A stretch of DNA of 31,638 bases, taken from IMG/VR virus record IMGVR_UViG_3300039203_000020, positions 1 to 31,638 of that record; one strand, written 5' to 3'. Position numbers and translations under genes: made by a program. How positions within the stretch are numbered: the first letter of the stretch is position 1; each line of letters begins with the position of its first letter. Source of the DNA: a virus. Below the pieces are notes generated by a model that worked only from the letters and a program-made list of their open reading frames with translations, was not told where the DNA came from and did not search any database. Of this stretch, positions 516 to 8,499 are shown in pieces.

Positions 516-937
516 GCTGACACCCGCTGGGCGTGCTCCGCATCGAGTCGGCGCTGGTAACGCCGAACCGCTTCTCGGCGGCAGGTACGACAGTCGCGCG
601 ACCCCTTGGGTGTCAGGTACGTGTTCATCTCGTCGTAGGCGTGGCCCTGGGGACAGTGCGTCCGGAGCCCCTGAGGGTTGTCCTTGTTCCACGCCTGCGT
701 TCGCCGATCGGCCCACCGAGTGTTCGCGGGTGAGTAGTCACCGTTGTTGTCGATCCTGTCAAGCGACATGCTTTCGGGCTTCGAGCCGAGGTCGGCCATG
801 TAGTTGGCGAAGGTCAGCCAGCGGTCGCAGACCTTGATCCCTCGTCCGCCGTAGCGCGCGTAGCTGGGGAAGGTCGGCTCCGTGCAGCGTCGGATCATGG
901 ACCGCCAGCGGTAGTAGTCGGTGCGCGGGCCGGTCAT
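512..937 (-). CDS. HNH endonuclease, phage early-region type
   Basis: A 141-residue protein of the small HNH type common in phages. The N-terminal half carries WRSMIRRC...YGGRGI.VCDRW..F.NYMADLG, followed by the core SLDRIDNNGDYSP.NTRWA, where D-R-I-D-N-N-G and N-x-R-W form the HNH-like metal and DNA contacts. The C-terminal third has a second zinc-like motif, HCPQGH...RDCRTCRR (about residues 94-121). Known relatives cut double-stranded DNA and often behave as free-standing homing enzymes. The ATG at 937 overlaps the stop of the HTH gene, so it is the second gene of the leftward early operon. Fold confidence is high; whether it is mobile or serves packaging or host takeover is open. Confidence 0.85.
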   Translation of the reverse strand: MTGPRTDYYRWRSMIRRCTEPTFPSYARYGGRGIKVCDRWLTFANYMADLGSKPESMSLDRIDNNGDYSPANTRWADRRTQAWNKDNPQGLRTHCPQGHAYDEMNTYLTPKGSRDCRTCRREAVRRYQRRLDAEHAQRVSA

Positions 938-1131
938 GCGACACCAGCCGCACGGTCGAGCGCGACGCGCTCGACCTCCTCGGGGGTGAAGAGGAACGCG
1001 CCGCGCAGACCGGGGAGTTTCTGGACGGGATCGATCTTGCCGAAGGCGACCCAGCGGGAGAGGGTGGAGCGGTCGATCTGGAGTTGTTCGCACACATCGG
1101 CGCTGGTGACAAACTGGGGGGTGTTGTGCAT
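934..1131 (-). CDS. Helix-turn-helix protein, excisionase/Cro-like
   Basis: A 65-residue MerR/excisionase-type winged-helix protein. After a short leader comes TSADVCEQLQIDRSTLSRWV (helix-turn-helix, about residues 9-28), then LRGAFLFTPEEVERVAL, the wing and final helix typical of the Xis/HTH_17 family. Small proteins of this kind direct excision with the integrase or act as Cro. It is the first leftward gene from the switch region, divergent from the repressor. I place the start at ATG 1131 rather than the upstream ATG at 1140, because a TTGACA/CAAGAT promoter puts the transcription start at or next to 1131, giving a leaderless mRNA; no ribosome binding site precedes either ATG. Its own start lies inside an operator-like inverted repeat. 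Xis versus Cro cannot be decided from sequence. Confidence 0.8.
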   Translation of the reverse strand: MHNTPQFVTSADVCEQLQIDRSTLSRWVAFGKIDPVQKLPGLRGAFLFTPEEVERVALDRAAGVA

Positions 1132-1159
1132 GGGTGTCATCTTGTGCCATGCACAACAC
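1121..1159. promoter_or_regulatory. Operator-like inverted repeat over the early promoter
   Basis: GTGTTGTGCATGG at 1121-1133 is perfectly inverted as CCATGCACAACAC at 1147-1159, leaving a 13-base spacer. The right arm covers the spacer between the -35 and -10 boxes of the leftward promoter and the left arm covers its start codon. The core half-site TGTGCAT recurs at 1221-1227 near the repressor promoter. Position and symmetry fit a binding site for the repressor or for the HTH protein itself; binding is inferred. Confidence 0.6.
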
Positions 1160-1167
1160 TGTGTCAA
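1131..1167 (-). promoter_or_regulatory. Early leftward promoter, leaderless
   Basis: Read on the minus strand: a perfect -35 box TTGACA (1167-1162), a 17-base spacer, a -10-like CAAGAT (1144-1139), then 7 bases, then the ATG of the HTH gene at 1131. The transcript would start at or next to the ATG, so the mRNA is predicted to be leaderless. The whole element is embedded in the operator-like inverted repeat. Confidence 0.65.
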
Positions 1168-1250: not shown

Positions 1251-1619
1251 ATGAGTCAGACACAGAGCAAGGATCAGCTTGCCTTCGACCTGATCGACCG
1301 ACTGCACAAGTCGATGCGGGTCAGCGGACACAGCACGCGGACGCTCGGCGCCGCCCTCGGGACTCACCGCAACACGATCGCCAACTACCTCGCCGGCCGG
1401 ATCACTCCGAACCGGCGAACCCTGGTGGCATGGGCGCTAGCGGTAGGACACGGCGTCACAGCCGAGTGGCTCGAGACGGGCCAAGGGGATCCGCTGTCCC
1501 CTCCTACCGGCACCCCCCGTGACGACGGCGACGCGGCCCTAGCACGTCTCGCAGCGAAGAACCGTGCGCGACACGCCGGGGGCGGTGCTACCCGCCGGTA
1601 TCAGCCGGTGGCAGCATAG
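1251..1619 (+). CDS. Immunity repressor (HTH)
   Basis: A 122-residue DNA-binding protein. Residues about 30-65 (TLGAALGTHRNTIANYLAGR followed by TPNRRTLVAWALA) form a clear lambda-repressor/XRE-like helix-turn-helix of the kind seen in actinophage immunity repressors. The C-terminal third is hydrophilic with no protease or dimerisation domain such as LexA/CI S24, so it would not be a RecA-cleaved repressor. It faces the leftward early operon across a 119 bp region with operator-like repeats, the classic switch arrangement. The ATG has no ribosome binding site and is predicted to be leaderless. The last residues, PVAA, resemble an ssrA-like C-terminal degradation signal; this is suggestive only. 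The repressor call rests on the fold, small size and divergent position next to the integrase. Confidence 0.8.
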   Translation: MSQTQSKDQLAFDLIDRLHKSMRVSGHSTRTLGAALGTHRNTIANYLAGRITPNRRTLVAWALAVGHGVTAEWLETGQGDPLSPPTGTPRDDGDAALARLAAKNRARHAGGGATRRYQPVAA

Positions 1620-1640: not shown

Positions 1641-1696
1641 CTGCACCGTCACGATTGACCGAGACAACCGTTTCTAGATGGGGGAGAAAGAACGCC

Positions 1697-2008
1697 ATGA
1701 GCGAGACCGCCCGCCTCACCCTGACCGACTTCCTGCTCGCGCGGATCGCGGAGGACGAGGCCCGCTTCCGTCGCGTCGAGTTCGAGCTCTCCTATATCAA
1801 CCTGTTCGACCGACTGCTGGCCGAGTGCGAGGCGAAGCGGCGGATCGTGGAGTTGCGCTACTCGTGGAACCTGCAAGCTGAGCGAAACCCCGAGCCGCCG
1901 TTCAGCTCTATCTTCCAGACTCAGGTCAACACGGCCGACGCGATCCTCCGCGCGCTCGCCCTCCCCTACGCCGACCACCCGGACTACCGCGATGAATGGC
2001 AGCCGTGA
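1697..2008 (+). CDS. DUF6221-family small protein (copy 1)
   Basis: A 103-residue protein with the DUF6221 signature: TLTDFLLARIAEDEA near the N-terminus, LLAECEAKRRIVE in the middle and LALPYADHPDYRDEW at the end. It lacks the central HIARHDPARV segment seen in the copy at 4971-5450, so it is a shortened member. The start is ATG 1697, preceded by a GGGGGAG purine run. An earlier in-frame ATG at 1655 would leave no such site. It lies between repressor and integrase and overlaps the integrase start, so it is in the lysogenic transcription unit. The family is frequent in Streptomyces and actinophage genomes, with no known function. Confidence 0.75.
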   Translation: MSETARLTLTDFLLARIAEDEARFRRVEFELSYINLFDRLLAECEAKRRIVELRYSWNLQAERNPEPPFSSIFQTQVNTADAILRALALPYADHPDYRDEWQP

Positions 2009-2814
2009 GCGACACCCCCATCGCCGACGCCTACGAGCGGTGGCTCCAGCTCTGCGACTGGTCACCGAGGACCGTGAAGGCCCGGACCACGCTGGCCCGG
2101 GGGCGGCTGAGGGCATGGGGGCTCGAGGGGATGACGCCGGAGAACATCTTCGAGTGGCTGGGCCGCGAGGGTCTGAGCCGCTGGACCAGGGCCACCTACT
2201 ACGCCCACCTCAAGGACTTCTGCAAGTTCCTGGTCGTAGGCGGGTACATCGAGGAGACCCCGATGGACTCCGAGCTGGTCCACCAGCCGAAGCGGCCTAA
2301 GTCGCTGCCCCGGCCACTGTCGGAGGAGGAGGTCGAGCGGGTGCTGCGCGCAGCGAAGGGCCGCGAGCGTGACTGGATCATGCTGGCCCTGCTCGCCGGC
2401 CTCCGGGTCCACGAGATTGCGAAGATCCGAGGCGAGGACGTCTCCCCCAACGGGATCTATGTGCTGGGCAAGGGGGCCGTGGAGGCCATCCTGCCGATTC
2501 ACCCCGACCTCTGGGTGATGGCGCAGCGCTACCCGCGGCACGGCTGGTGGTTCCCCAACCCGCAGGGCGACCACATCCACCCCGACACGATCACGGCCCG
2601 TGTCACAGCGCTGTTCCGCCCGCTCGGCATCAGCGAGGGGTCGGTCCACCGGCTCCGGCACGTCTACGGCACGCGGCTCCTGCGGTCCGGCGTCCATGTG
2701 CGGCGGGTGCAGACGCTGATGCGACACGGGAGCCTGGAGACCACGGCGCTTTACACGGCGGTGGACGAGGACGAGCTCCAGGCTGCGATCAACCTGTTGC
2801 CGTCGATCGCCTGA
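1996..2814 (+). CDS. int: Tyrosine-recombinase integrase (armless)
   Basis: A 272-residue tyrosine recombinase that integrates and excises the phage DNA at attP/attB. Residues about 8-100 are the SAM-like core-binding domain (ERWLQLCDWSPRTVKAR...ATYYAHLKDFCKFLV). The catalytic domain follows with all expected residues: Arg137 (LLAGLRVHEI), Lys159, His218-x-x-Arg221 (HRLRH), His244 (LMRHGS) and nucleophile Tyr253 (TALYTAVD). The protein starts directly at the core-binding domain, so the usual N-terminal arm-binding domain of phage integrases is missing, as in the 'simple' armless integrases described for mycobacteriophage Brujita. The start is ATG 1996, or GTG 2005, which overlaps the upstream stop as GTGA; both lack a strong ribosome binding site, so coupling is likely. 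The attP core lies about 770 bp downstream. Confidence 0.95.
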   Translation: MAAVSDTPIADAYERWLQLCDWSPRTVKARTTLARGRLRAWGLEGMTPENIFEWLGREGLSRWTRATYYAHLKDFCKFLVVGGYIEETPMDSELVHQPKRPKSLPRPLSEEEVERVLRAAKGRERDWIMLALLAGLRVHEIAKIRGEDVSPNGIYVLGKGAVEAILPIHPDLWVMAQRYPRHGWWFPNPQGDHIHPDTITARVTALFRPLGISEGSVHRLRHVYGTRLLRSGVHVRRVQTLMRHGSLETTALYTAVDEDELQAAINLLPSIA

Positions 2815-2815
2815 C

Positions 2816-3010
2816 TCACGGCCTGCCGCCCGCCGCGATCCACGTCCTCAGCGCGTCCAGCTTCGCCTTCGCCTCGGCCTCGGTCTTGCCGGTGACGGTG
2901 ACGCGGCGTCGGGCTCCGGTGCGGGTGTAGCCGTGCTCGATGGTGCCGAGCCAGCGGCCGTCGGAGGAGCGGCGGTAGACGGAGCCGGTGCGGTACTGGC
3001 GGCGGGTCAT
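2816..3010 (-). CDS. Stand-alone integrase arm-binding-like domain
   Basis: A 64-residue basic protein (MTRRQYRTGSVYRRSSDG...). The pattern G-S-V-Y-R-R-S-S-D-G-R-W-x-G-T-I..G-Y-T-R-T-G-x-R-R-R-V-T-V-T-G-K-T-E-A-E-A-x-A-K-L matches the three-stranded AP2-like N-terminal domain that tyrosine integrases use to bind arm-type sites. That domain is normally fused to the integrase; here it is a separate gene on the opposite strand, with its stop one base from the integrase stop (convergent). It overlaps the upstream gene by ATGA (start ATG 3010) and so belongs to the leftward 5.9-2.8 kb operon. A role in trans with the integrase (directionality factor, arm-site binder or competitor) is inference; a free DNA-binding protein is the conservative call. 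Confidence 0.7.
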   Translation of the reverse strand: MTRRQYRTGSVYRRSSDGRWLGTIEHGYTRTGARRRVTVTGKTEAEAKAKLDALRTWIAAGGRP

Positions 3011-3432
3011 TCGGTGTGAGCGCGGTTGGCGGTGCAGACCATGTGCATACAGATCTCCCGCTCGTCCTCTTCGCGCGTGACCTCGACGTCGCGGGGAGCT
3101 CCACACGTCCAGCAGAAACCGTACAGCTCCACCAGCCGCCGCTGTTCGGCCGCCCGGGTGTTCATGGTGGGGCGGGACGCGGACCACAGCTCGGTGATCC
3201 GTGGCGCGATGTCGTCGCCCACTTGGTCGGGGGTGAAGTAGCCGGTGCCAATGAGTGCCTCCCGCGCGAGGCTGACGCGCCTCTCGGCGACACTCACGGC
3301 CTCGGCCCGCACCCGCTCGTCGTGGGCAGCGACGGCCTCCGCGACGGGCCGTGCCATTCGCTCGATATCTTCAGCGACCGCCTCCATGACCCCTGCCATC
3401 GCCAGCACCATCTTCTGCGCCTCGTCGCTCAT
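3007..3432 (-). CDS. Hypothetical protein with C-terminal zinc motif
   Basis: A 141-residue protein. The first half (about residues 1-75) is a helical, Ala/Glu/Arg-rich stretch with coiled-coil character. The second half contains FCWTCGAPRDV and, about 20 residues later, CMHMVC, a probable four-cysteine zinc knuckle. I choose ATG 3432, preceded by a GGGAGAAG purine run, over ATG 3495, because the extra 21 residues look like non-coding translation. It is the first gene left of the attP core and overlaps the arm-domain gene, suggesting joint expression. The family is not recognised; a DNA- or protein-binding role is likely but unproven. Confidence 0.65.
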   Translation of the reverse strand: MSDEAQKMVLAMAGVMEAVAEDIERMARPVAEAVAAHDERVRAEAVSVAERRVSLAREALIGTGYFTPDQVGDDIAPRITELWSASRPTMNTRAAEQRRLVELYGFCWTCGAPRDVEVTREEDEREICMHMVCTANRAHTE

Positions 3433-3586
3433 CGCTTCTCCCGTCCGCTCGCGCGTAGTGTTTCCATGTCTCCAACCTAGCACGACGTCAGCCATGTTTA
3501 CAGCCTTCTCAACGCCGGTCCTGTCCTGTCAGGACCCCGTTTTCACGCTCAATCCGGCCTCATTCCCTACCTCTTACGCCTAGTAT
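3433..3586. other. Non-coding flank of attP
   Basis: About 150 bases with no convincing gene between the start of the 3007-3432 gene and the tRNA-like core. This stretch is visibly richer in A/T and pyrimidine runs than its surroundings (for example the CCTCATTCCCTACCTCTTAC region at 3558-3578). It plausibly holds the promoter of the leftward pair 3432-2816: a TGCTAGGTT extended -10-like element reads leftward near 3470. No integrase arm repeats could be picked out by eye. Confidence 0.4.
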
Positions 3587-3635
3587 CCCTTCCCTTACAA
3601 GGAAGATGTCAGGGGTTCGAATCCCTTTGCGCCCA
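3587..3635 (+). other. attP: attP core: 3' half of tRNA-Val(UAC)
   Basis: The segment folds as the 3' half of a class I tRNA. The anticodon stem is CTTCC/GGAAG (3589-3593 and 3601-3605) around the loop CTTACAA (3594-3600), whose anticodon TAC reads valine. Next come the variable loop ATGTC and the T stem-loop AGGGG-TTCGAAT-CCCTT (3611-3627). The 3' acceptor strand TGCGCCC with discriminator A (3628-3635) completes it. There is no D-arm or 5' acceptor strand upstream, so this is not a functional tRNA. A tRNA 3' end is the usual attB of tyrosine integrases, and the phage carries the matching piece so that integration restores the gene. Exact ends of the identity block need the host sequence. 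Confidence 0.85.
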
Positions 3636-3638
3636 CGC

Positions 3639-3791
3639 TCAGGGGCCGGTCTCGGGGCCGGGTTGTGTAGCCAAGTCGTCAGCCTTCTGGCGGACTACCG
3701 TCGTCCGCCGTGGGTACAAGATCGTGCCGGCCAGCACCGCGAACACCGTCCCCAGCCACGTTGACGCGACCCGTTCGTCCGGGTCGGTCAT
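3639..3791 (-). CDS. Small membrane protein
   Basis: A 50-residue protein with one predicted membrane span (about residues 10-26, STWLGTVFAVLAGTILY) followed by a basic, hydrophilic tail. The start ATG 3791 overlaps the stop of the upstream gene; its stop lies only 3 bases from the tRNA-like core. Integration would therefore put this gene at one prophage end. No family is recognised. Confidence 0.6.
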   Translation of the reverse strand: MTDPDERVASTWLGTVFAVLAGTILYPRRTTVVRQKADDLATQPGPETGP

Positions 3792-3898: not shown

Positions 3899-4086
3899 GT
3901 CCCCATCTCCCCGTCCGGCACGGCTTCGATCCCGAACTGGTCGATCGTCCGCTCGCAGGTGGCACACTCGGCGATCACATCGTGACCTCCGGGCCAGGTG
4001 TGCAGGTGGCCGCCCGCCGCCTCGATCGCTTTCAGTCGAGCGGCGTGAGCGGCGTACCCCTCGGGCGTGGGGCGGTCGACGCTCAC
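3895..4086 (-). CDS. Small hypothetical protein with CxxC motif
   Basis: A 63-residue protein with HLHTWPGGHDVIAECATCER in its centre (His and Cys residues around 27-45), a likely zinc site, and an acidic C-terminus. GTG start at 4086 overlaps the preceding DUF6221 stop (GTGA), and its own stop overlaps the following GTG. No known family is recognised; it is one of several small Cys-pair proteins in this operon. Confidence 0.6.
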   Translation of the reverse strand: MSVDRPTPEGYAAHAARLKAIEAAGGHLHTWPGGHDVIAECATCERTIDQFGIEAVPDGEMGT

Positions 4087-4514
4087 GTCCCCGCCCCGTC
4101 CGTGGCGGCGGGGCCCACCCCGTAGGCCGAGGCGAGCGCGACCAGGGTCGGGCAGTCATCTGGCAAGACGCCCGGCGTCTCGTGCAGATCGGTGCAGGTC
4201 GGATCGAAGTGGTCTCCGCGGTGGTCCGGCGTGTGCAGCTCGACCACCGCCCGCACCCCCGCGCACATGGCCAGCACGCGGGCGGGGTCGTGGCGGGCGA
4301 TGTGGACGCGGACGGACTCGTCGTTGAAGTACCCGATGACATCGGCGCCAGCGTCCCCCTTGCCGACCGTGAGCAGCTCGTTTCCCTCAAGCCACCACGA
4401 GCCCTTGGCCCACCAGTCGCCGGACGGGTAGACGCCACTCTCAGCCGCCTCCCGCGCCACCGCCTCGTCGGCCTCGACGGCGGCGAGGATGGCAGCGGCG
4501 AGGTCGGCGGTCAT
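4083..4514 (-). CDS. DUF6221-family protein (copy 2)
   Basis: A 143-residue protein related to the copies at 4971-5450 and 1697-2008. It has the N-terminal LAAAILAAVEADEAVAREAA helix, a middle domain with Trp-rich WWAKGSWWLEGNELL, the family hallmark HIARHDPARVLAMC (about residues 75-88) and a C-terminal DCPTLVALASAYG. It is the most divergent of the three copies. ATG 4514 overlaps the upstream stop (ATGA). No function is known for the family. Repeated presence in one phage suggests ancient duplication or repeated acquisition. Confidence 0.75.
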   Translation of the reverse strand: MTADLAAAILAAVEADEAVAREAAESGVYPSGDWWAKGSWWLEGNELLTVGKGDAGADVIGYFNDESVRVHIARHDPARVLAMCAGVRAVVELHTPDHRGDHFDPTCTDLHETPGVLPDDCPTLVALASAYGVGPAATDGAGT

Positions 4515-4732: not shown

Positions 4733-4974
4733 GGGGTCGGCTCCTCAATGTCGATGGGGGCGTCGAAAACGGTTCGTGCGTGCGTGACAGTGAACCGGTC
4801 GCCCTCGATGGTCACGACGTCGCCCGGCTGAAGGTCCAGCGCCATCTCGACGCCTTCGACCTCTACACGCGTGAAGCCGGACATGACGCGGAATGTCATC
4901 TGCCGCCCGTCTTTGTAGCCATCGCGCCATCCTTCGGAGTATCCCTCGCTCCAGGGGGCTGCCGGGCCGGTCAT
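4729..4974 (-). CDS. Small hypothetical protein
   Basis: An 81-residue acidic protein. The start (MTGPAAPWSEGYSEGWRDGY) has a repeated YxEGWxDGYxDG-like aromatic/glycine pattern. The rest looks like a small beta-barrel segment (VEGVEMALDLQPGDVVTIEG), reminiscent of short SH3-like or cold-shock-size modules. No family can be named. ATG 4974 overlaps the stop of the DUF6221 gene and its stop overlaps the next ATG. Confidence 0.6.
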   Translation of the reverse strand: MTGPAAPWSEGYSEGWRDGYKDGRQMTFRVMSGFTRVEVEGVEMALDLQPGDVVTIEGDRFTVTHARTVFDAPIDIEEPTP

Positions 4975-5450
4975 GGCCGCCACTTCTCGCGGTAGTCCGG
5001 GTGGCCGGCATAGGGCTGCGCGAGGACGCGGAAGACCCAACGCGCCCTCTTGTCGTCATCGGACTGGCTAGCGCCGTATCCGAGCTCGTCGCCCCAGTCC
5101 CTGTGCCTCAGGAATGGCGCCAGCGTCGTCACGATCCGCCGCTTCGCCTCGCACTCGGCCAGCACGCGGGCGGGATCGTGGCGGGCGATGTGCTCGGCGT
5201 TCTCCTGTGAGTGGCCGCCGGGTTCGACCCGAGTCCCGTAAGAGATGACTTCCATACCGCCGAAGTCGGCGAGTTCCTCATCGTCGTCGTCCTCCCGCAC
5301 GACTTCCACCGTCAACCATTCCCCCTCGGGATCATGGTTGACGTGTTGCATGACCTGGGTAGCCCACTCGCCTGGGCTAGCGGCGCGCGCCACCGCCTCG
5401 TCCTCCGCGATCCGCGCGAGCAGAAAGTCGGTCAGGGTGAGGTCGGTCAT
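4971..5450 (-). CDS. DUF6221-family protein (copy 3, full length)
   Basis: A 159-residue protein with the complete family pattern: LTLTDFLLARIAEDEAVARA (residues 4-23), an acidic central insert (VVREDDDDEELADFGG), the conserved HIARHDPARVLAECEAKRRI (about residues 89-108) and the closing LAQPYAGHPDYREKW. Its N-terminal helix and C-terminus are almost identical to the short copy at 1697-2008 on the other side of attP. DUF6221 proteins are common in actinobacteria and their phages and have no established function. Start ATG 5450 overlaps the preceding stop. Confidence 0.8.
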   Translation of the reverse strand: MTDLTLTDFLLARIAEDEAVARAASPGEWATQVMQHVNHDPEGEWLTVEVVREDDDDEELADFGGMEVISYGTRVEPGGHSQENAEHIARHDPARVLAECEAKRRIVTTLAPFLRHRDWGDELGYGASQSDDDKRARWVFRVLAQPYAGHPDYREKWRP

Positions 5451-6226: not shown

Positions 6227-6520
6227 TCAGACGACCCCGACGGCGAGGACCCGGGGGTCGCTGTCGCCGTTGGACAGGGTCGCGGTGAGGGTCACGGTGA
6301 GGTCGGCGCCGGCCGGGGTGATCCCGGTGGTGGCGAGGTGGAACGTGATGGCGGTGCCGGAGCCGACGACTGCCGTGAGCGTCCCCGCGGAGGCGACGCC
6401 AGAAGCCGACGTGATCGTGACGGGCGTCAGTGTGCCGTAGGCCGCGGCGAGTCGGGGTGCCCAGTTGTCGGTGTAGGTCAGGCTCGCGGCGGCCTTCTGT
6501 GTGATGCGGACGTCGGCCAT
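6227..6520 (-). CDS. Small Ig-like/beta-rich tail-region protein
   Basis: A 97-residue protein made almost entirely of alternating small/beta residues (SASGVASAGTLTAVVGSGTA, DLTVTLTATLSNGDSDP). It looks like one immunoglobulin-like or bacterial Ig domain, with no catalytic motif. It is the last gene of the late leftward operon; its ATG shares one base with the stop of the preceding repeat protein (TGATG), so the two are translationally coupled. A role as an accessory virion or host-adhesion domain is the usual reading for such modules; not proven. Confidence 0.6.
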   Translation of the reverse strand: MADVRITQKAAASLTYTDNWAPRLAAAYGTLTPVTITSASGVASAGTLTAVVGSGTAITFHLATTGITPAGADLTVTLTATLSNGDSDPRVLAVGVV

Positions 6521-8499
6521 CAGTCGTCCACCTCCGGGGCTGTGAGTGTGCGGCGAACGGTCGGGGCGGTCAGGGTCCGGGCCACGGCGGGGGCGTCGAG
6601 GCGCCGGTCTACGGCCGGTGCCTCGAGGGCGCGTTCGGCGGCTGGTGCGACCAGGGTGCCGCGTCGTGTCGGCGCGGTGAGCTGAACGTAGGGGGCGTGG
6701 AAGCCGCTCGAGACGCCGACCAGGTTGCCGAGGAACCCGAGCGCGGCCGACAGGCCCTTACCGATGCGCCGTCCGAGGCTCCCGGCGAACCCGACGGTGG
6801 CGGACTGCGAGGAGCCGATGCGCCTGGTCAGACCACCGACGGTGAACCCGACCGTCGCCGCTATGCCGCGACCGGTGCGGCGGGCCAGCGACCCGGTGAA
6901 CCCCACCGTAGCCGTCAGTGCCTTCGTGAAGAAGTGGACCGCAGCGGTGGCCATCGCCCCGGTGAACGAGACGGTCGCGGTCAGTCCGTGGCCGACCCGA
7001 CGCGTCTGCGACCCGGTGAAGGAGACCGTGGCGGATTGGCCGCTGCCGATGCGACGGACCTGCGCGCCGGTGAAGGACAGCGCGGCGAGGATGGCCTTGC
7101 CGGCGCTGCGCGACTGCGACCCGGTGAAGGAGATGGTCGCCGACTTGCCGGCTGCGATCCTCCTGGCCTGCGACCCGGTGAATGACAGGGTCGCGGTTAG
7201 CGCCTGGGTGAAGACGTGGACGGCGGCCGTGGCGAGCGCCCCGGTGAACCCGACGGTCGCTGTGATCCCGTGCGCGGTGCGCCGGGCCAACGTGCCAGTG
7301 AACGCGACGGTTGCCGAGAGCGCGTGCGTGGTGCTGCGTGGCAGCGCCCCCGTGAACCCGACCGTAGCGGCGTTGCCCTTGGATACCCCGCGGGCCTGTG
7401 TTCCGGTGAACGCCACCGTCGCAGACTGGCGGGAGGCGATCGACCTAGCCTGCGCTCCCGTGAAGGACAGCGTGGCCGTGAGCGCCTGAGTGAAGTGGTG
7501 GACCGCGGCGGTAGCGAGCGACCCCGTGAAGGAGAGGGTCGCGGCCAGGGCGCGGGCTGTGCGCTTGGTCAACGCGCCGGTGAACGCGAGCGTCGCGGCG
7601 AGGACGTGGACGACCGCCCTGGCCAGCGTGCCGGTGAACCCGACCGTGGCTGCCTGGCCTTTCCCGGTGCCCTTGGACTGTGCCCCGGTGAACCCGACGG
7701 TGGCGGACTGTGAGGACGTGTACGCCTGCGCGCCTGCCGTGCCCAGGTCGTAGGCACTATTGGCAGGCGACCATTTCGCGTTGGTCGGGGCGTCCATGAA
7801 CGCCGGGAACGCGTTGCCCACCATGAATCCCGGGCTGAGGAAGGCAGGACCGTAGGCAGCGGCGGTGGCGGCGCCCTTGAGCACCTCGATCGCCGCGATG
7901 GACCCGGTGACACCCGTCGTGGGTGCGGACAGGCCGACGCTCTGACTGGCCCCGGTCAGCGTGCAGTGACCGGCGTATGAGGTGTTGTTCGCGGCGAGGA
8001 ACTGGTAGCCGTCCTCGGTCGCGGACAGGTCCCAGGCGCGGGTTGCCCCGTCGGTGCCGTTCCAGTCCGCAGCGATGACGATGCCGAGGTTCCCGGATGC
8101 CCCAGCGAGGGTGCCTTGCAGGCTTGCTGCGAGGGGAGCGGAAGCGAGGACGTTGGGCGAACCGGCGAGGCTGTAGCCGTCAGCGGTCGGGCAGACGTAC
8201 AGCCAGCCGTTGTGGATGCTGGCGCCGCCCGTAGGCGCCGTCGTGACGACCACGCTCGAGCCGCCGGCCGTGGCGGCCATGGCCCAGACGTATGCGTTGC
8301 AGGTGCTGGCGGTGTTCGTGTGGCCGTTCGGGGCGCCGAACGCCAGCCCCGTCCCGGAGGGGTTGGCGAGCGTGATCGGGTTGTCCCACGTCTCGGCGAT
8401 GACAACCACGATGTCGCCGCTCGCCAGCGTCGGGATCGTCCACGACAGGGTGCGGGAGTCCGACGTGGTGGTGGCGTCGGCGAGGATGGTGAGAGCCAC
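6520..8499 (-). CDS. Repeat-rich tail/fibre protein
   Basis: A 659-residue protein in three parts. Residues 1-210 form a beta-sandwich-like domain seen in actinophage tail genes (ATTTSDSRTLSWTIP ... GSIAAIEVLKG). Residues about 262-592 consist of 18 units centred on FTG (consensus ATVxFTGxxxRR), mostly 18 residues apart. Residues 607-659 hold six 9-residue LxAPxxxRx units. No enzymatic motif is visible. Extended repeats in a late-operon gene suggest a fibre or adhesin exposed on the tail, but the central units (Arg and small hydrophobic residues) do not match a fibre family I can name. ATG 8499 has upstream purines (GGAAGGGTGGTAGGCC). Confidence 0.7.
   Translation of the reverse strand: MALTILADATTTSDSRTLSWTIPTLASGDIVVVIAETWDNPITLANPSGTGLAFGAPNGHTNTASTCNAYVWAMAATAGGSSVVVTTAPTGGASIHNGWLYVCPTADGYSLAGSPNVLASAPLAASLQGTLAGASGNLGIVIAADWNGTDGATRAWDLSATEDGYQFLAANNTSYAGHCTLTGASQSVGLSAPTTGVTGSIAAIEVLKGAATAAAYGPAFLSPGFMVGNAFPAFMDAPTNAKWSPANSAYDLGTAGAQAYTSSQSATVGFTGAQSKGTGKGQAATVGFTGTLARAVVHVLAATLAFTGALTKRTARALAATLSFTGSLATAAVHHFTQALTATLSFTGAQARSIASRQSATVAFTGTQARGVSKGNAATVGFTGALPRSTTHALSATVAFTGTLARRTAHGITATVGFTGALATAAVHVFTQALTATLSFTGSQARRIAAGKSATISFTGSQSRSAGKAILAALSFTGAQVRRIGSGQSATVSFTGSQTRRVGHGLTATVSFTGAMATAAVHFFTKALTATVGFTGSLARRTGRGIAATVGFTVGGLTRRIGSSQSATVGFAGSLGRRIGKGLSAALGFLGNLVGVSSGFHAPYVQLTAPTRRGTLVAPAAERALEAPAVDRRLDAPAVARTLTAPTVRRTLTAPEVDD
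6535..6681 (-). repeat. Six 9-residue LxAP coding repeats
   Basis: Residues 607-659 of the 6520-8499 protein read as LTAPTRRGT, LVAPAAERA, LEAPAVDRR, LDAPAVART, LTAPTVRRT and LTAPEVDD: an exact 9-residue (27 bp) period with invariant Leu, Ala and Pro and mostly an Arg at position 8. Confidence 0.85.
6724..7716 (-). repeat. Nested 18-residue/94-residue coding repeat
   Basis: Eighteen units with the F-T-G core lie at residues 270, 288, 306, 324, 346, 364, 382, 400, 418, 440, 458, 476, 494, 512, 534, 552, 571 and 589 (the last two degenerate: FAG, FLG). Spacing is 18 residues except 22 after residues 324, 418 and 512, where a LATAAVHxFTxALTAT insert occurs. Those three lie exactly 94 residues (282 bp) apart, so a five-unit block was itself duplicated. 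Confidence 0.9.

Follow-up and report, generated by a model that had tools for sequence, protein, structure and literature searches.

A free-standing integrase arm-binding domain and an armless Brujita-type integrase of separate lineage in a probably chimeric phage integration module

Why should a phage whose integrase has no arm-binding domain encode such a domain in a gene of its own, immediately beside the integrase? The question is raised by a whole virus record of 31,638 bases (hereafter the window), actinophage-like, with its structural genes lying to the right on the minus strand. The integration region runs from an attP site through one small gene to the arm domain, then through the convergent integrase, a DUF6221 gene and the repressor, and ends with a divergent HTH_17 gene (Table 1). 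The small gene next to the attP contains a motif, GTGYFTPDQVGDDIAPRI, that is common to other phage genes. An HNH endonuclease gene at 512-931 (phrog_374, E=4e-33) directly adjoins the HTH_17 gene, and the DUF6221 / phrog_6326 family is present in three copies in the window (1694-2008, 4083-4511 and 4971-5450), with homologues also found close to the arm-type attPs of relatives L076 and L081. Farther along, near the tail genes, a 659-aa ORF (6520-8499) is made up of numerous degenerate repeats with the pattern ATVGFTGxxAR.

Table 1. Features of the integration region of the window, with positions counted from its first base
Feature	Position	Strand	Remarks
HTH_17 excisionase/Cro-like gene	934..1167	-	divergent from the repressor; 34% identity to Brujita gp35 (putative excisionase)
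HTH repressor (phrog_2328)	1251..1619	+	C-terminal end ...PVAA; without tRNA-like attP core
DUF6221 gene	1694..2008	+	between repressor and integrase
Armless Brujita-type tyrosine integrase, 272 aa	1996..2814	+	catalytic set R137-K159-H218-R221-H244-Y253
Junction of both modules	2812..2818		integrase stop 2812-2814, one base, arm-gene stop 2816-2818
Free-standing arm-binding domain, 64 aa	2816..3010	-	homologous to N-termini of full-length arm-type integrases
141-aa gene, function unassigned	3007..3432	-	alternative start 3495; between attP and arm gene
Putative attP core, 3' half of a tRNA-Val(TAC) gene	3589..3636	+	antisense to the arm gene
Predicted arm-type site ATGGCTGAC	3487..3495	-	offset +120 from T-loop anchor
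Predicted arm-type site AAGGCTGTA	3499..3507	-	offset +108 from T-loop anchor
Predicted arm-type site TTGGCTACA	3666..3674	-	offset -59 from T-loop anchor
Predicted arm-type site AAGGCTGAC	3678..3686	-	offset -71 from T-loop anchor

The integrase reading frame extends from the ATG at 1996 to a TGA ending at 2814, and since an in-frame TGA (1993-1995) stands directly ahead of this start codon, no arm domain can be read upstream and the missing arm is not a slip of annotation. An AlphaFold2 model of the protein (pLDDT 89) starts at the core-binding helices, with no N-terminal arm domain, and its best fold match in the PDB is the Brujita integrase gp33 (5VFZ), which is likewise the best PDB match by sequence (E=1e-42). 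The two enzymes share 38% identity over 96% of the length (tblastn E=2e-37), and the alignment shows the complete set of catalytic residues to be kept. The order of HTH_17 gene on the opposite strand, repressor and integrase is that of Brujita, with the DUF6221 gene added in between. The window integrase is recognisably an armless enzyme of the Brujita type. Its C-terminus is SIA and not the AA in which nearly all of the Brujita-type integrases compared (L003, L013, L015, L016, L067, L004, L009 and L036) end, and which is a possible degradation tag. Two of the contigs concerned, G014 (that of L015) and G015 (that of L016), encode two and three tyrosine recombinases respectively, each including a Brujita-type one, and a scan of the genome collection with the window integrase matched only a XerC.

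The 64-aa gene occupies the minus strand (ATG 3010-3008, TGA 2818-2816), and because only base 2815 separates its stop codon from that of the integrase on the opposite strand, the two genes are convergent. Its start overlaps the stop codon of the upstream gene (ATGA), so that it is likely to be translated by coupling. Codon statistics favour its frame, which scores 0.37 bits per codon where none of the other five exceeds -0.17, and GC3 in this frame is 0.95. When 2.9 million viral contigs were scanned with the 64-aa protein (tblastn) and with two alignments as queries, all relatives of the protein, about 20 of them distinct, proved to be the N-termini of full-length actinophage integrases of 395-480 aa. 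Identities were 60% and 50% in the first scan and reached 73% later, the closest relative being L081 (73% over 49 aa; 77% over 146 nt of DNA). Every column that is at least 90% conserved in the arm family is kept in the 64-aa protein, which ends at the start of the linker that leads to the core-binding domain and has no domain beyond the arm. At 0.344, its mean non-synonymous divergence from the other arm domains lies inside the range of these intact enzymes (0.306-0.383) and thus gives no sign of long neutral decay.

The structure predicted for the 64-aa protein (pLDDT 82) is beta-beta-beta-alpha, an arrangement reported for the arm domains of IntTn916-type integrases (PMC8138268). With a domain so small, a Foldseek search of the model against the PDB returned no significant match, and of the Pfam families tried PF14657 gave no match and AP2 (PF00847) only 15.1 bits (E=0.03), below the curated cut-off of 33.3; the identity of the protein would have escaped a search of Pfam alone. 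On the strength of its sequence relatives the protein is an integrase arm-type DNA-binding domain. The original prediction had held that the integrase begins at its core-binding domain and is related to the armless integrases of the Brujita type, and that a 64-residue protein matching the missing arm domain is encoded convergently one base away; all of this is borne out.

The small protein could have come to this position by other routes than as an arm left behind by a different integrase. Its sole PHROG match is labelled 'endonuclease' (phrog_16880, E=5e-13), and together with the HNH gene nearby this could indicate an AP2-type domain that derives from an HNH homing endonuclease and is unrelated to integration. 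However, 16 of 17 genuine arm-domain sequences match phrog_16880 as well, so that the label does not discriminate and misleads for a free arm domain; an endonuclease origin deduced from phrog_16880 was ruled out on this ground, and as all genomic relatives found are integrases and cognate sites flank an attP (see below), we consider any such origin very improbable. The original prediction had also proposed that the domain became detached from this very integrase and was inverted, for which the adjacency of the two genes is the one argument. In a maximum-likelihood tree built on the core-binding and catalytic parts of 13 arm-bearing integrases and the armless group, the arm-bearing and armless enzymes separate with 100/100 support, the window integrase falling in a group of seven rows (95/93) that also holds Brujita and metagenomic relatives. 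Because its catalytic part belongs to another lineage than those of all arm-bearing integrases, the arm domain was not cut from the window integrase, and the contigs of the close armless relatives contain no arm gene at all; the proposal is contradicted by these results and is scarcely credible.

The arm domain has more than its gene to mark it as part of an arm-type system. Outside the pair of genes to which attention had been drawn, a newly found attP of the arm-type kind, complete to judge from its predicted elements, is present at 3487-3686. Its putative core lies about 570 bp upstream of the 64-aa gene, and the assignment to a tRNA-Val 3' half is confirmed by matches to the tRNA-Val(TAC) genes of other phages. 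In the arm-bearing relatives a tRNA 3' half lies upstream of the integrase gene, within about 200 bp in most, and many of them have (A/T)TGGCTnACA repeats around it, 12 bp apart and on the integrase strand. The window has one tandem pair of predicted arm sites on each side of its tRNA-Val fragment, with the 12-bp phase kept, and under a site model whose training set comprised ten relatives and left out the window these two pairs rank first and second window-wide (20.9 and 19.2 bits). In loci without an arm-type integrase 0 of 720,756 positions score 19 bits or more, and the mean for simulated genomes is 0.02. Flanking pairs are present too in L002 and L081, both outside the training set, and the right-pair offsets from the T-loop (+108/+120) are identical in the window and in L081 (-60, -48, +108 and +120), both phages having a tRNA-Val core.

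Among the phages in which four sites are recognised, the window has the lowest site scores, a result compatible with slight decay and with changed specificity alike. The motif is not universal, since in L022, L030, L076 and L065 no pair attains 15 bits, and no such arm sites were found at four Brujita-type attPs (those of Brujita, L004, L009 and L067). As the core is intact and has sites to its left and right, the record is presumably not a prophage integrated at the tRNA-Val core. Near relatives of the attP or of the whole left arm were sought in phages and plasmids, where only tRNA genes matched, and a scan of viral contigs for the exact core gave no match.

The repressor end of the region was searched for an alternative core. 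The C-terminal AA of the repressor is common to the window, L003, L013, L016 and Brujita, and in BPs such a tag directs the viral repressor to degradation (PMC4557955). The searches that found the tRNA-like attP core of the Brujita repressor found none in that of the window, where a core of non-tRNA type is possible, nor in the close armless relatives L003, L013 and L016. A perfect 10-bp inverted repeat with a 4-bp spacer (1617-1640; TAGGGATACG-AACG-CGTATCCCTA) starts exactly at the repressor stop codon; it occurs once in the window and has no T-run, and a terminator, an operator or a recombination site are all conceivable. As a single copy without other support, this 24-bp palindrome was rejected as an alternative core.

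The two lineages, the identity of the arm, the core, the arm sites, the junction at a domain boundary and the armless nature of the present catalytic enzyme can all be read from the sequence. They are probably best explained by a chimeric module, in which a Brujita-type cassette displaced the immunity genes together with the catalytic portion of an integrase of the arm type, the arm gene and the attP being left over. The ancestor would have had an arm-type integrase with its attP in tRNA-Val; a small gene would have stood between the two, and the integrase gene would have converged on the repressor genes. A cassette of repressor, DUF6221 gene and armless integrase would then have taken the place of the repressor block and of the old core-binding and catalytic part, with the arm domain as a 64-aa gene, the tRNA-Val core and the four arm-type sites as presumed remnants of the old system. 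Such a replacement is supported by the gene order of the arm-type phages with readable context (L001, L002 and L081), which runs from the attP, sometimes through small genes, to the integrase, convergent repressor genes and divergent Cro/excisionase genes: the window keeps this order, with the cassette in the place of the repressor. An origin as a leftover is supported by the end of the arm protein at the interdomain linker and by its relatives all being N-termini of full-length integrases. No phage intermediate in the replacement was found. The related phage G004, with a 63% identical terminase and a full-length arm integrase, was rejected as the parent state because of weak synteny and an arm that shares only 41% identity.

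The arm protein is likely to be still made, by translational coupling, and still to bind its four sites. On the account of a chimeric module it would be mainly a young leftover, the sole likely residual effect of which would be to occupy the attP and the beginning of the operon to which its gene belongs, while integration would probably be carried out by the armless integrase alone, at another core or at the inherited tRNA-Val core. A passive leftover would be expected to decay, yet the conserved residues are all kept, the divergence is typical and the sites are in 12-bp phase; a recent event and continued use fit the intact gene and the phased sites equally. The extra gene between attP and arm gene was dropped as evidence for function, since attP and integrase are separated by genes in L081 and L002 as well, the attP of the other arm-type phages lying directly upstream.

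Continued use could take the form of a working two-protein integrase, in which the 64-aa protein on its four arm sites would aid or direct the armless integrase at the tRNA-Val attP in trans, through synapsis, efficiency or direction, a reading that we regard as rather unlikely. Action in trans is possible because the arm gene is intact, and the sole recognisable attP core has intact cognate sites on either side. The separate N-domain of lambda integrase reportedly stimulates the catalytic part (Sarkar et al. 2001, cited in PMC5871717). The option is kept alive by the lack of a recognisable tRNA core in the repressor where that of Brujita was found, and weakened by the same lack in the nearest armless relatives; arm sites around the attP are also expected of a leftover, which tells against a role in trans. 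The two components, moreover, come from different lineages, which makes a ready-made interface unlikely, and the small protein offers no domain beyond the arm. The Brujita integrase itself is described as needing neither arm sites nor a directionality factor (PMC7194413). No second phage with an armless integrase and a free arm gene was detected in IMG/VR at the sensitivity used, and the literature searched contained no description of such a system, in agreement with the earlier statement that none was known.

Alternatively, the free arm domain might serve on its arm sites as an autoregulator that represses its own operon, and perhaps as a competitor that keeps the arm-type integrases of other phages from acting at this attP. 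The right site pair (3487-3507) lies 55-75 bp upstream of the first start codon of the operon, and integrases with a promoter overlapping the att region commonly autorepress through arm-type sites, as tRNA-associated integrases often do (PMC2951348), so that autoregulation could apply here. No sigma-70 promoter was recognised at this position, however. Arm domains bind cooperatively with the rest of the integrase, and alone may bind weakly, which would also tell against such a regulator; we think this use of the protein doubtful.

Three known systems come closest to the window. With Brujita (gp33/gp34), BPs and Weirdo19ES, phages with integration-dependent immunity, it shares the catalytic enzyme without an arm domain, an upstream repressor gene on the same strand whose product ends in AA, and the excisionase/Cro-like gene divergent from the repressor. 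It differs from them in possessing arm-type sites, in two tandem pairs, and an arm protein, in a repressor without a tRNA-like attP, in an attP downstream of the integrase, and in the extra gene between repressor and integrase. With the full-length arm-type integrases of soil actinophages (L001, L018, L019, L081 and others) it shares an arm domain of 50-73% identity and IntTn916-like form (three strands and one helix), a tRNA attP core and tandem arm sites of the same 12-bp phase and offsets, whereas the arm of the window lacks core-binding and catalytic domains and is a separate ORF that stops at the linker. The lambda N-domain supplied as a separate molecule resembles it as a free arm domain beside an armless catalytic part; that pair is a laboratory product derived from a single enzyme, whereas the window combines two lineages naturally.

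Armless integrases have been treated as having neither arm sites nor arm proteins, and arm domains as inseparable from their enzymes; here both separations are found in one phage. That the arm domain of another lineage gives a 'directionless' Brujita-type recombinase efficiency or direction at an attP with arm sites, making up a natural two-component integrase, is a tentative suggestion at best. With the likely binding sites of the arm protein still in place, the locus nevertheless presents a natural version of the domain-separation experiment in lambda, and exchange of modules may be a route by which control through the arm could be lost or regained.
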